13,981 bases of DNA from assembly GCA_903821905.1 (NCBI GenBank), contig CAIJMQ010000033.1:1-13981 (forward strand), in the 5' to 3' direction. Under the pieces are notes generated by a model, which was not told where the DNA came from, ran no database searches, and saw only the letters and a list, made by a program, of their open reading frames with translations. This document shows positions 1-8,384 of this stretch, one piece after another. The position numbers and the translations under genes were made by a program. Each line of letters starts with the position of its first letter. Position 1 is the first letter of the stretch. This DNA comes from an uncultured bacterium (GTDB lineage Bacteria > CAIJMQ01).

Positions 1-2726
1 GGGAATACGGATTCTTTTACTGCAACACAGTTAATTTGTTTCTCCTTTGTAAATTTCAGCTCTTCCAGTGTTTTGCCAAGCATTATCTTGGTTGCAAGAT
101 TAGCAAGAGGAACTCCTATAACTTTACTTATAAATGGTACGGTTCTGCTTGCTCTCGGATTCACTTCCAGGATATAGACAATATTGTTTTTAACCGCAAA
201 CTGGATATTTAATAATCCTTTCACCTGCAATTCTTTTGCTAATGCATATGTATTTTTCTTTATTGTTTCTAATATATCTTTAGACAGTGTATAAGTCGGG
301 ATAACCATTGCGCTGTCTCCTGAATGTATGCCTGCTTCCTCTATGTGTTCCATAATGCCGCCTATAACACATCTTTCGCCGTCCGCTATTGCGTCCACAT
401 CCACTTCTATTGCATCATCCAGAAATTTATCAATAAGTATGGGATGTCCGGGAGATACTTCCATGGCTTTCTCCATAAAACTTGCCAATCCTTCGTCATC
501 ATAGACTATCTCCATTGCTCTTCCGCCGAGCACATACGACGGTCTTACTATTACGGGATAGCTTATTTTATTTGCAACCTTTTTTGCTTCTTCAAGAGAA
601 TTAGCAGTACCGTTCTCAGGTTGTATAATTTTAAGTTTCTTGACTATCTGCTGGAATCTTTTTCTATCTTCCGCTTTATCTATTGAATCAGGGCTTGTCC
701 CGAGAATATTAATCCCTAATTTCCACAGCGGGACTGACATGTTAAGAGGCGTCTGTCCTCCGAACTGAACTATTATTCCGATAGGTTTTTCTAAATCGAT
801 AATGTTTAATATATCTTCCACGGTTAAGGGTTCGAAATACAATTTGTCCGAAGTATCATAATCCGTGGAAACGGTTTCAGGGTTACAGTTCACCATGATA
901 CTCTCGATGTTTTCTTCCTGCAGAGCATATGAAGCGTGAACGCAGCAATAATCGAATTCGATTCCCTGTCCTATTCTGTTGGGACCTCCTCCGAGGATGA
1001 GGACTTTCTTTTTCCCTGAAGGGATGCTCTCGTCTTTTGTTTCATAGGTGGAATAATAATATGGCCTTTCCGCCTTGAATTCTCCGGCGCAGGTATCCAA
1101 CAATTTATAAACCGCCTTTATATTATTGTTCTTTCTATAAGTTCTTACTTTTTGCTCGGTAGAATTAAGAAGATGTGCAATCTGTATATCAGAAAAACCG
1201 TTCATCTTTGCTCTCTTAAGCAATTCCACGGGAACTTTTATCGCACTACTTGTACTGCTTTGTGCGTATTTTTGTATTTCTTCTTCCAGGTTAACAATTT
1301 GTTTCATATTATCTAAAAACCATTTATCGATTTTTGAAAGTTCACATATTTCATCGATTGAAAGCCCCATTTTAATGCCATATCTGATATAAAACAACCG
1401 CTCATCATTCGGAATTCTTATTTTTTCTTTTATGGCTTCAGATAGCTCTTTCGATGGTAATTTTAACATTTCGTTTGTAATCTTGTCTTTCCCGTCTGAT
1501 CCCAAACCGAACCTACCTGTTTCCGTAGACCTTATACCTTTTTGAAGCGCTTCCTGGAAATTTCTTCCGATAGACATCGCTTCTCCGACAGCTTTCATAG
1601 ATGTGTTCAGCACTCTTTCGGCTTGAGGGAATTTTTCAAAAGTGAACCTGCATATTTTAAACACACAGTAATCGACCGTCGGTTCAAAGAACGAAGTTGT
1701 TTTCCCGGTAATCTGGTTCATAACCTCCGGCAGAGTTAATCCTACGGCAAGTTTTGTAGCTACTCTTGCAATAGGGAATCCCGTAGCTTTTGAAGCCAAA
1801 GCAGAACTTCTCGATAATCTTGGGTTCACTTCTATAATTACGATATGCCCATTCTCCGGATTTTGTCCAAACTGAATATTTGCTCCGCCGCCGGTTATAT
1901 CTATTTTTCTTATAATCTTTTTTGATAGGTTTACAAATTGTGAGTATTCGTCCTTAGTTAAAGTTTGTGACGGTGCCACCACGATGCTGTCTCCGGTATG
2001 CACGCCCATCGGGTCAATATTTTCCATCGAAGTAATCATAATCACGTTATCAACTCTGTCTCTCATCACTTCAAATTCTATTTCTTTCCAACCAAGGACT
2101 GACTGCTCAACAAGTACTTGTCCTACGGGGCTTATTTCCAATCCCTTCGCAAGAAAAACTTCTAATTCTTCCTGGTTATAAGCAGTAGAACTACCGCTAC
2201 CGCCCAAACAATAAGCCGGTCTTAAAATTAAAGGGAATCCTATAGAAAGCCCGATTTTCATACCTTCTTCAACACTTGTTGCAATACCGCTCTTTGGTAC
2301 ATCAATCCCTATCTCCTGCATTGCCTTTTTAAATAATTCCCTGTCTTCCGCTCTTGATATGGCTTCCACGCTTGCTCCTATGGATTCCACACCGTATTTT
2401 TTCAGTATGCCTTCTTTCATCAAGAAATATGCGAGATTCAAACCTGTTTGCCCTCCCAATGTTGGAAGAATAGCGTCAGGTTTTTCTTTCTTTATTATCT
2501 CTGTAACCATATCCACCGTAAGCGGTTCGATATAAGTTTTATCTGCCATTCCCGGGTCTGTCATAATGGTCGCTGGGTTACTGTTAATAAGAATCGTATG
2601 ATAACCTTCTTCTCGTAGTGCTTTACACGCCTGAGAGCCGGAATAATCAAATTCACAGGCCTGACCTATAACAATCGGTCCGGAACCTATCATCAGAATT
2701 TTATGTATATCAGTGCGTTTCGGCAT
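1..2726 (-). CDS. carB: Carbamoyl phosphate synthase large subunit, C-terminus beyond the left edge
   Basis: CarB makes carbamoyl phosphate from bicarbonate, ammonia and two ATP, for pyrimidine and arginine synthesis. Starting at the ATG at 2726-2724 the frame stays open for 908 codons to the window edge. It begins [20 protein letters not shown], the family's usual N-terminus. Both ATP-grasp halves are visible: the first with [13 protein letters not shown] and [18 protein letters not shown], the second starting near [16 protein letters not shown] with [12 protein letters not shown] and [12 protein letters not shown]. The family is usually about 1,070 residues, so roughly 160 residues, the allosteric MGS-like domain, lie outside. 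I saw no frameshift. The start is 5 nt after the carA stop, with an AGGAAA ribosome site inside the carA end, so the two genes are cotranscribed. The catalytic halves look normal, unlike the partner CarA. Confidence 0.97.
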
Positions 2727-2731
2727 TGTTT

Positions 2732-3808
2732 TTATTTCCTTTTGTTTGCCATTTTCAAAAACCTTACAAATACATTATTCACTTCATCAAATCCGGGACT
2801 GACCGGATAATATTGCGTTGAAATGAACTTCAAGGATTTGCTTTCCATCTCTTCAATCGAATTATCATTCAAATTGCGCAGTGTTATGTTTACATCTTTT
2901 CTATTCTTTATTGAATCTTCGTCTACAATAAATGAATGGTTTTGAACGGTGATTTCGCCTTTAAGAGAATCAGACGATTTAACGGGATAGTTCACGCCCC
3001 GATGCCCCATTGCCATTTTCTTCAGTTTTCCTCCCAATGCAAGAGCGATGATTTCGTGACCTGTAGATATACCCAAGACCGGAATCTTCCCGAGCATTTC
3101 TTTTATAGTTTGTGTGATTATCGGGATTGCTTCGTCGTCTTCGGGACCGTTTGAAATGAACAGAGCATCAAATTCCGATTTTAATATTTTGTCCGCATCA
3201 GTGTCGTACGGTAATAAAGTTATATTGCACTCAAGAGTTTTCAATTGTTTGATAACACTATTGGTAATCCCCAAATCCAATATCGCAATGTCCGGTCCGG
3301 AACCGGCATCTTTGTTTTTGGTAATCTTTTCTACCGAGATTCCTTTTATAAAATTTTTCTTTGCTTTGTTGTCCTTGAGTTTCTTAAGTAAAACAGCGTC
3401 GCTTGTATCTTTGGTGGAAATTATTCCAAGCATCTCGCCGCTATCTCTAATTTTAACAGCCAGCGTCCTTGTATCAATTTCACTTATCGCAACGGTCTTT
3501 TCTTTTTTCAGGAAATCATCAAGACTACCCTCTGCCTGCCAGTTTGAATACATCTTGCTGTTTTCTTTGATAATAAGACCTTCAATCCAGCATTTTTTTG
3601 ACTCGTTGAATTTTCCGGCTACGCCATAATTGCCGATTAGAGGATAAGTGAGGACTAAAATTTTCCCTGCATTTGCAGGGTCTGTAATCATTTCTTGATA
3701 ACCTACAACTGCGGTATTAAGGATAACTTCTCCGATTTTTTCGCCCGGGGAACCGATGGAGATGCCTTCAAAAGAACTGCCGTCTTCTAATACTAATTTA
3801 GCTTTCAT
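2732..3808 (-). CDS. carA: Carbamoyl phosphate synthase small subunit with a degenerate glutaminase site
   Basis: The 358-residue length, the N-terminal CarA domain ([19 protein letters not shown], residues 26-44) and the position directly before carB identify this as CarA, which normally hydrolyses glutamine and feeds ammonia to CarB. The class I glutaminase domain starts near residue 172. The usual nucleophile motif GICLGHQ reads GISTGHE, with Ser248 (codon 3067-3065) in place of Cys. The usual QGHPEASPG reads QYYPVSPG, with Tyr334 for His and Val336 for Glu. The GPGDP loop reads GPEDD (residues 221-225). The glutaminase is therefore very probably dead, while the frame is intact and the rest conserved. 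Vertebrate ammonia-dependent CPS I likewise has GISTG at this place. The likely role is structural or allosteric support of an ammonia-using CarB. Identity is certain; loss of activity is inferred from residues. Confidence 0.96.
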
Positions 3809-6665: not shown

Positions 6666-6690
6666 AAAAAAAGATAGTGATAAAAACTAT
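6666..6690 (-). terminator. Weak candidate terminator after the restriction-type cassette
   Basis: Starting at the stop codon of the 266-residue gene, the minus strand reads ATAGT, a 7-nt loop, ACTAT, then C and seven T. The stem is only 5 bp and AT-rich, so termination would be weak and transcription may continue into mnmG, 88 nt further on. Confidence 0.3.
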
Positions 6691-7487
6691 TTAGAATCGT
6701 TTGAAATAATATAAGGTGACAACCATTCAAGTAATTCCTGCTGTTTTGGAGGACAAATTCCTCTTGTCCTTAACAATAATTGCATAGTATCGTAAGCCAA
6801 TGACCAGTCAATATTTAATGGAGTTGAGTAGTTTTTGCGAACATCTTCTACAAACAACCGGGTTTTATAAGGGACACTCATACAAGTTAGCAAAGTATTA
6901 ATCCTTCCTGTCTTCCACTCATGCTTTCCTTTAAATGTCGGTTTCCCATTTTCGACATGATATTTAACATCTTCATTCCAGCCTATAAGATCCATAAAAT
7001 GCAGAAGCCCTAATAACCCATATTCAATAATATCTGGAATTAAACTGTCCAATAAACTTATGCACTCTAAAATTTTTTTGTCTGGTTGATATCTGTATAT
7101 CCCTTTGGAAACTTCAACGTGATCTAACATATAAGCATTTCTGTAAATCAGCGTTAATACGGATTTGAAAATTTCTTGATTTGAAACCGATATTTTGGAA
7201 AGTTGTTTCCAAACATCATCGAATCCATATCGCTTATTATCTGAACCTACTTGTGGCCGCATGTCATGCGGATTAGGATTTCCTTTTCTGACTGTTTCTT
7301 TGCCGGGTTTATAGAAACAAACTTCCTTTTTATTAGGAAGAATAGTAATTAGTTTTTTCTTGGGTTGTTCGATTGACTTACCACTTGGAAAACCTAACCC
7401 CTCAATTATTCTTTGACTTCTTTTCTCAGTTAATCCAATAGGATTTCCCCTTTGGAGTTCAGTTTGTAGTATTGAATAAAATGTCAT
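6687..7487 (-). CDS. Unrecognised 266-residue protein, possible restriction endonuclease partner
   Basis: I do not recognise a family for this protein. Its place is suggestive: it starts 6 nt after the stop of a DNA methyltransferase, on the same strand, and has the size of many type II restriction enzymes. It is lysine-rich and AT-rich in codon use, has no signal peptide or membrane segment, and is probably soluble. A possible PD-(D/E)xK-like arrangement is Asp173 followed 17 positions later by Glu190-Trp-Lys192 in the stretch KGKHEWKTGR, but this is a weak pattern that could be chance. The N-terminal part (GLTEKRSQRIIEGLGFPSGK) is basic and could contact DNA. Other options are an accessory DNA-binding or specificity protein. 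No frameshift is seen. The start ATG at 7487 gives the maximal frame; an upstream ribosome site is not obvious. Confidence 0.6.
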   Translation of the reverse strand: MTFYSILQTELQRGNPIGLTEKRSQRIIEGLGFPSGKSIEQPKKKLITILPNKKEVCFYKPGKETVRKGNPNPHDMRPQVGSDNKRYGFDDVWKQLSKISVSNQEIFKSVLTLIYRNAYMLDHVEVSKGIYRYQPDKKILECISLLDSLIPDIIEYGLLGLLHFMDLIGWNEDVKYHVENGKPTFKGKHEWKTGRINTLLTCMSVPYKTRLFVEDVRKNYSTPLNIDWSLAYDTMQLLLRTRGICPPKQQELLEWLSPYIISNDSK

Positions 7488-7493
7488 TTGAAT

Positions 7494-8384
7494 TTATGCT
7501 ATTGTTAAATATTTTTTATGGGGCTTATTATTATTTCGCAATGAATATGTTCCTTGTTTCTCCAAGAGGGTTAACTGAGGATGTAATGTTTCAATAGGTG
7601 TTTTTCTAATTGGGAGTCTATATTTTTCTTCGATTTTACCGTTCTTTAATCTAGATAAAATTAATTTATGATACTTTGGATCTATTTCCGCAGAAATATA
7701 TTGTCTTTTAAGCCATTTGCATACCTCTAATTCTGAACCACTTCCTCCAAAAAGAACTAGGACTATATCATCTGGTATAGTACAAGATTTTATTAACATC
7801 TCCGTCAATTTTTGAGGTATCTGGCAAGCATGATAAGTTTTTTCTTTGCTTACATTCTTGACTAGGTCAAAATAAAACCAGTCGTAAGGCATTCTGCCTT
7901 TAGACCCATTTTTAAGATTTTGCAAAATTCTTTTATCTGTAGGGTTTTTGTAAGAAACTGCAACATTATCTTTATAAAATTTATTATTTTTTGTTTTTAT
8001 ACAGTGCAAAATACTTCTATGAGCAGTTGTAAAACGTTTTGGAGTATGCCCTACATTAGTATTGTATGTCCATACATAATCAAATACATCATAACAAACT
8101 TGGTCTAAATATTTAACCCGTAAATATGCATTTTGCTTGGGATAGTTTATAAAAAACATATTTCCGCTGTCTTTGAGAACTCTTAGTGATTCTTTTGCCA
8201 ATTCAATATACCACTCAATATATTCATTGAAGTTTTTGGTATAAGATTTATCTCCGTATTTAACCCCTACATTATAATCAGGATCACCATAAACCATATC
8301 AATACTTTTATCAGGCAAGTCTTTTAAGAGAGCCAATATATCCGTCAGAAAAACTTGGTTTAAATATTGTTTAAGGTATGACAT
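7494..8384 (-). CDS. Beta-class site-specific DNA methyltransferase (N6-adenine or N4-cytosine)
   Basis: The 296-residue protein has the two hallmark amino-methyltransferase motifs in beta-class order. Motif IV comes first, GDPDYNVG (33-40), a variant of DPPY. Motif I follows, LVLFGGSGSE (209-218), the S-adenosylmethionine loop, with Glu-Ile-Asp of motif II at 233-235. MPYDWFYFDLVKN (165-177) and HACQIPQKLTEMLIKS (185-200) are typical of this class just before motif I. It methylates the exocyclic amine of adenine or cytosine in a specific site, which cannot be deduced here. It leads a two-gene cassette with the 266-residue protein. A well-spaced promoter lies directly upstream. The base composition is clearly more AT-rich than neighbouring mnmG (14 G+C in the 60 bases 7981-8040 against 26 in 5461-5520), suggesting horizontal acquisition. 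Confidence 0.92.
   Translation of the reverse strand: MSYLKQYLNQVFLTDILALLKDLPDKSIDMVYGDPDYNVGVKYGDKSYTKNFNEYIEWYIELAKESLRVLKDSGNMFFINYPKQNAYLRVKYLDQVCYDVFDYVWTYNTNVGHTPKRFTTAHRSILHCIKTKNNKFYKDNVAVSYKNPTDKRILQNLKNGSKGRMPYDWFYFDLVKNVSKEKTYHACQIPQKLTEMLIKSCTIPDDIVLVLFGGSGSELEVCKWLKRQYISAEIDPKYHKLILSRLKNGKIEEKYRLPIRKTPIETLHPQLTLLEKQGTYSLRNNNKPHKKYLTIA

Follow-up and report, generated by a model that had tools for sequence, protein, structure and literature searches.

Bacterial carbamoyl phosphate synthetases with a dismantled glutaminase site and a probable use of free ammonia

The window analyzed here is a stretch of 13,981 nucleotides from the metagenome-assembled genome (MAG) of an uncultured bacterium (G000; 1.3 Mb in 121 contigs, 84% complete). 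Its minus strand carries two genes for a carbamoyl phosphate synthetase (CPS), carA2 for the small subunit and carB2 for the large one (Table 1). CarA2 matches the NCBIfam model of the glutamine-hydrolysing small subunit (TIGR01368) with 361.9 bits, above the curated cut-off of 307.35, and is covered at full length by CPSase_sm_chain (PF00988, 154 bits) and GATase (PF00117, 116 bits); it is therefore a true CarA. An AlphaFold model of the protein (pLDDT 86, pTM 0.89) has the CPS small-subunit fold and matches E. coli CarA with a Z score of 45 and human CPS1 with a Z score of about 40. The nucleophile motif reads GISTGHE (Ser248), the His/Glu motif QYYPVSPG (Tyr334 and Val336) and a third motif NGPEDD. 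An earlier note on this DNA had described these three triad replacements and the GPEDD loop, in an intact frame and an otherwise conserved CarA, and the minus-strand ORF and the profile match bear this out. Its view that Val336 substitutes for the catalytic Glu stands as to the loss of that residue and needs refining as to the manner: every CarA2 of the clade described below has a His/Glu loop shortened by one residue (YPVSPGF in the window vs HPEASPGP in CarA with a live glutaminase, here live CarA), so Glu355 has been either deleted or replaced by Val336, and the alignment fits both. With Ser47, Lys202 and Gly243 changed as well as the triad, CarA2 falls outside glutamine-dependent CPS (CPS II), and the pipeline label "glutamine-hydrolysing subunit" is probably wrong.

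Table 1. Features of the CarA2-CarB2 locus in the window (replaced residues in E. coli numbering).
Feature	Positions	Strand	Basis
carA2, 358-aa CPS small subunit lacking the triad	2732..3808	minus	ORF, profile match and alignment
Ser248 codon, replaces nucleophile Cys269	3065..3067	minus	alignment
Tyr334 codon, replaces His353	2807..2809	minus	alignment
Val336 codon, Glu355 site, loop one residue shorter	2801..2803	minus	alignment
Glu223 codon, replaces Gly243 of the oxyanion/glutamine loop	3140..3142	minus	alignment
carB2, CPS large subunit of the full-length type; 908 aa lie in the window, where the contig end at position 1 truncates the frame	3..2726	minus	
CarB2 Thr232 codon, replaces ammonia-gate Cys232	2031..2033	minus	alignment
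CarB2 Gln208 codon, replaces Glu208; Gln in 26/26 clade CarB2	2103..2105	minus	alignment

The large subunit, which the earlier note had called conserved, is indeed interrupted only by the contig end, and the rest of carB2 lies on another contig of the same genome (G000:C49), 91% identical to that of a relative. The CarB partners of triad-less CarA keep, in all 29 cases, the catalytic residues tested in both halves, including Arg129, Arg169, Glu215, Asn283, Gln285, Glu299, Asn301, Arg303 and Arg306; these are what we take to be the catalytic residues of E. coli CarB, with positions read from the alignment. Residue 207 is Glu in the partners of live and triad-less CarA alike. The gate at position 232, which corresponds to Cys648 of CPS1 (PMC4655335), is Thr in 26 of 26 CarB2 of the clade and Cys in all 64 partners of live CarA (41 full CarB and 23 N-terminal halves, CarB-N), and Cys232 is retained in three CarB that belong to separate triad losses outside the CarA2 clade. 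The N-terminal half of CarB2 has a dN/dS of about 0.03-0.06. On its sequence, CarB2 is catalytically complete and has changed together with CarA2.

The earlier note had proposed looking for the same residue set in related genomes and estimating dN/dS on the subunit. A search of named genomes returned about 20 relatives of CarA2 (49-87% identity), mostly labelled Omnitrophota or Ratteibacteria and a few bearing other MAG labels. In a tree of 129 CarA the 30 triad-less CarA2 form a single clade (SH-aLRT 100), and all three triad residues are replaced in every member, a pattern well outside what chance would give. The replacements vary: the nucleophile position 269 holds Ser, Ala, Val or Gly, and Tyr, Asn, Ile, Leu, Cys, Ala or Met stand at position 353. 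Residues around the glutamine site differ in a more uniform way. Position 47 is Ala in 27/30 CarA2 vs Ser in 91/92 live CarA, Lys202 is found in none of the 30 vs 91/92, and position 243 is Glu in 30/30 vs Gly in 91/92; Tyr replaces His295 throughout (30/30), and the tunnel position 293, mostly Gly or Ala in live CarA, is Val in 25/30. The GATase domain of CarA2 is under purifying selection, with dN/dS values mostly of 0.05-0.19 (one pair reaches 0.29 at a dS of only 0.15), next to 0.05-0.12 for the same domain of the second, intact CarA described below. Taken at the level of these alignments, the glutaminase of CarA2 is lost, and its dismantled glutamine site has become fixed in a new form. 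Two genomes of 4.7-4.9 Mb that also have a live CarA and a full CarB carry CarA2 as well (G046, with L100 and L099, and G063, with L039), perhaps by transfer or misbinning.

Outside the clade, further triad losses occur in three small Bacillota groups and in one Omnitrophota genome, G125. The Bacillota CarA with incomplete triads are L086, L091, L076, L087 and L057, with motifs such as GISLGHQ and QFNPEG. In the tree of CarB N-terminal halves, the G125 protein is sister to the CarB2 clade; its triad loss may thus share an origin with that of CarA2, and the separate placement of its CarA may be a long-branch effect.

The second, intact carA for which the earlier note had suggested a search is present in the window's own genome. 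Contig C108 of G000 encodes CarA1, with its triad preserved (GICLGQQ, QFHPEA), followed by a 552-aa CarB and then by guaA. This CarB is exactly the N-terminal half of the large subunit, that is, the carboxyphosphate ATP-grasp and the D3 domain, and ends immediately ahead of the second half. CarA2 is thereby ruled out as the organism's sole CarA, and because CarA1 is intact the cell has probably not abandoned glutamine. A search of G000 for a separate CarB C-half gene, as in split (Aquifex-type) CPS, found none, and the sole C-half located there belongs to CarB2. Since both modules are present, CarA2-CarB2 need not carry flux in G000.

The genomic surroundings of the two modules differ among lineages. 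In most Omnitrophota the triad-less pair lies in a pyrimidine operon of the order pyrR-pyrB-pyrC-TIGR00375-[TIGR00725]-carA2-carB2-mutM-x-pyrK-pyrD-pyrF, with the pyr gene names confirmed by NCBIfam, whereas in the window's own family it adjoins a radical SAM gene and mnmG. CarA1-CarB-N neighbours pyrG in Omnitrophota and guaA-hisH-hisF-purF in the window's family. The TIGR00375 gene of the operon encodes about 825 aa at L046:7374-9851 and L048:7294-9774 vs about 412 aa in relatives; residues 310-562, in the middle of the L046 protein, match the intein-containing model NF045703 and are likely an intein. In the window, a gene for a Type II DNA methyltransferase (6687-8384, minus strand; PADLOC MTase_II, E 8.5e-142) lies between mnmG and pyrG, adjoined by a 266-aa ORF that has no family match and is perhaps its restriction enzyme. 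Carbamate kinase as an alternative source of carbamoyl phosphate gave nothing over the cut-off in the 18 genomes searched. A want of glutamine synthetase as the reason for keeping CarA2 found no support: a full GlnA-type match occurs in G000 and in several of the genomes that have CarA2 only; others of these have only a partial Gln-synt_C match in a 740-aa frame, and G070 gave none. Finally, an arginine-only role for one module and a pyrimidine-only role for the other could not be told apart from the argF/pyrB profile, because both genes occur in most genomes.

We then tallied the two modules over 32 genomes with CarA2, in which the absence of CarA1 was judged in MAGs whose incompleteness limits every such statement. 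Live CarA accompanies a half-length CarB in 20 of the 32, where the only complete C-half found is that of CarB2; it accompanies a full CarB in two (G046 and G063), has an ambiguous status in two and was not found in eight, all MAGs. Six of these eight CarA2-only genomes (G003, G067, G068, G069, G072 and G075) carry both pyrB and argF, and just a few of the CarA2-only genomes, namely G068 (the survey centre), G069 and G083, stem from a survey limited to genomes of at least 85% completeness. By locus, no CarA1-CarB-N was found in the L045/L046/L051 clade, the L043/L044 pair, L048 or L201. Conversely, many of the relatives that lack CarA2 combine CarA1-CarB-N with a stand-alone CarB-C, located in the same slot of the pyr operon or beside purF-guaA. 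In the tree of C-terminal halves, these solo CarB-C fall in at least seven separate places inside groups of CarA2-CarB2. The simplest reading of this pattern is that CarA2 and the N-half of CarB2 were deleted repeatedly, at least about seven times, where CarA1-CarB-N exists, and are thus dispensable there. Because lineages have lost one module or the other, either N-terminal module appears to be sufficient.

The halves may also have been rejoined. The full CarB of G134 (L245), which stands behind a live CarA, groups with CarB-N by its N-half and with CarB2-C and solo CarB-C by its C-half, and looks like a re-fusion of split or dual genes; in G158 the two modules adjoin each other, so a single deletion could give a CarB of this kind. 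A long-branch clade of three full-length CarB without an adjacent CarA (L248, L249 and L250, in G152:C23, G116:C3 and G112:C8) keeps all catalytic residues and is possibly another ammonia-dependent CPS, or has a different function.

Based on these results we consider it likely that CarA2-CarB2 is a functional CPS that does not hydrolyse glutamine and uses free ammonia as its substrate. The pair has the hallmarks of an ammonia-dependent CPS, namely an inactivated glutaminase and two complete synthetase halves, and ammonia use is probable since the glutaminase active site has been lost yet the subunit is conserved. In our model, ammonia would enter past the remodelled gate Thr232 and reach carboxyphosphate in the N-half of CarB2 without using the old CarA tunnel; the carbamate would then move inside CarB2 to the C-half, which would make carbamoyl phosphate, mainly for pyrimidines given the position of the pair in the pyr operon of most Omnitrophota, and CarA2 would be retained as a structural or allosteric subunit. 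Ammonia dependence would be the natural reading, we infer, where CarA2-CarB2 is the only CPS found and pyrB and argF are present. The earlier note's proposal that the enzyme uses ammonia thus agrees with the lost glutaminase and the complete CarB2, and is tempered by the intact CarA1 in the same genome. In dual genomes CarA1 and CarB-N would provide a glutamine-driven route, probably borrowing the C-half of CarB2: CarB-N needs a C-half, and the relatives with solo CarB-C make an arrangement in trans plausible. CarA1-CarB-N may alternatively act as a homodimeric half-CPS, by analogy with a small CPS from Methanobrevibacter smithii that is reported to be dimeric (described in PMC6022934).

The same dual genomes, about 20 of which pair CarA1 with a CarB N-half only and have their complete C-half in CarB2, could instead mean that CarA2 and the N-half of CarB2 are an idle scaffold and that only the C-half works, fed carbamate or ammonia by CarA1-CarB-N in what would be a split, glutamine-dependent CPS carrying a vestigial appendage. 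The solo CarB-C in the same operon slot of relatives shows that the C-half works without the rest. However, one would expect an N-half that does no work to decay, whereas that of CarB2 keeps every catalytic residue at the low dN/dS given above, shares a clade-wide change at its gate and persists in genomes lacking CarA1-CarB-N; we therefore regard this explanation as unlikely. Less likely still is that CarA2 is an alternative glutaminase, or a regulatory sensor of another ligand, that works through the new residues Glu243 and Tyr295. The invariance of both in 30/30 does point to a remodelled pocket under constraint, but there is no conserved nucleophile, and positions 269 and 353 vary. On sequence, a glutaminase with a different triad keeps a small probability, although the glutamine-binding residues are gone too. 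An assembly error or a decaying pseudogene, suggested by the fragmented MAG from which the window comes, is hardly credible, as about 30 MAG sequences share the triad-less state with open frames, clade-wide conservation and strong purifying selection. Beyond the ammonia-dependent CPS that we favor, we tentatively propose a dual-input enzyme, an extension we hold somewhat short of probable, in which the C-half of CarB2 was served by interchangeable CarA1-CarB-N (glutamine) and CarA2-CarB2N (ammonia) modules and lineages later dropped one or the other, giving a split glutamine CPS or a purely ammonia-dependent one.

In the open-access literature we found no paper that treats Omnitrophota and carbamoyl phosphate together and no report of a triad-less bacterial CarA. 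If the proposed reading is right, these enzymes would be a bacterial counterpart of the urea-cycle CPS I, and the clade-wide changes of the triad, Gly293 and Cys232 would lay out a testable path for the change of a CPS from glutamine use to ammonia use. The lineages would likewise form a natural series from full-length to split CPS and show two half-redundant copies partitioning one reaction.

Among known systems, the closest comparison is with vertebrate CPS1. The human enzyme, which is unable to use glutamine, has Ser294 in place of the Cys, with Thr295 next to it, and its tunnel is blocked by Gln318, which occupies the Gly293 position (PMC4655335). CarA2 likewise has Ser followed by Thr in the window and a bulkier residue, Val, at the Gly293 position, so the parallel with CPS I drawn in the earlier note is upheld; both synthetase halves are complete in both systems and the small-subunit fold is the same (Z about 40). 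In contrast to CPS1, one fused chain of about 1500 residues that acts in the urea cycle, carA2 and carB2 are separate bacterial genes of a pyrimidine operon, the whole triad is lost rather than the Cys alone, and the gate Cys232 (Cys648 in CPS1) is Thr. Judged by sequence, CarA2-CarB2 would work like CPS I, but its separate genes and pyrimidine context set it apart from CPS I proper, of which N-acetylglutamate is the essential activator. With E. coli CarAB (CPS II) the pair shares homologous subunits, architecture and the CarB catalytic residues, and differs in that CarA2 has no glutaminase triad and a dismantled glutamine site. The split CPS outlined in PMC6022934 has the same arrangement as the CarA1-CarB-N and stand-alone CarB-C of Omnitrophota relatives; unlike it, the Omnitrophota split derives repeatedly from a full-length CarA2-CarB2 state, and in G000 the C-half has stayed joined to a second N-half.
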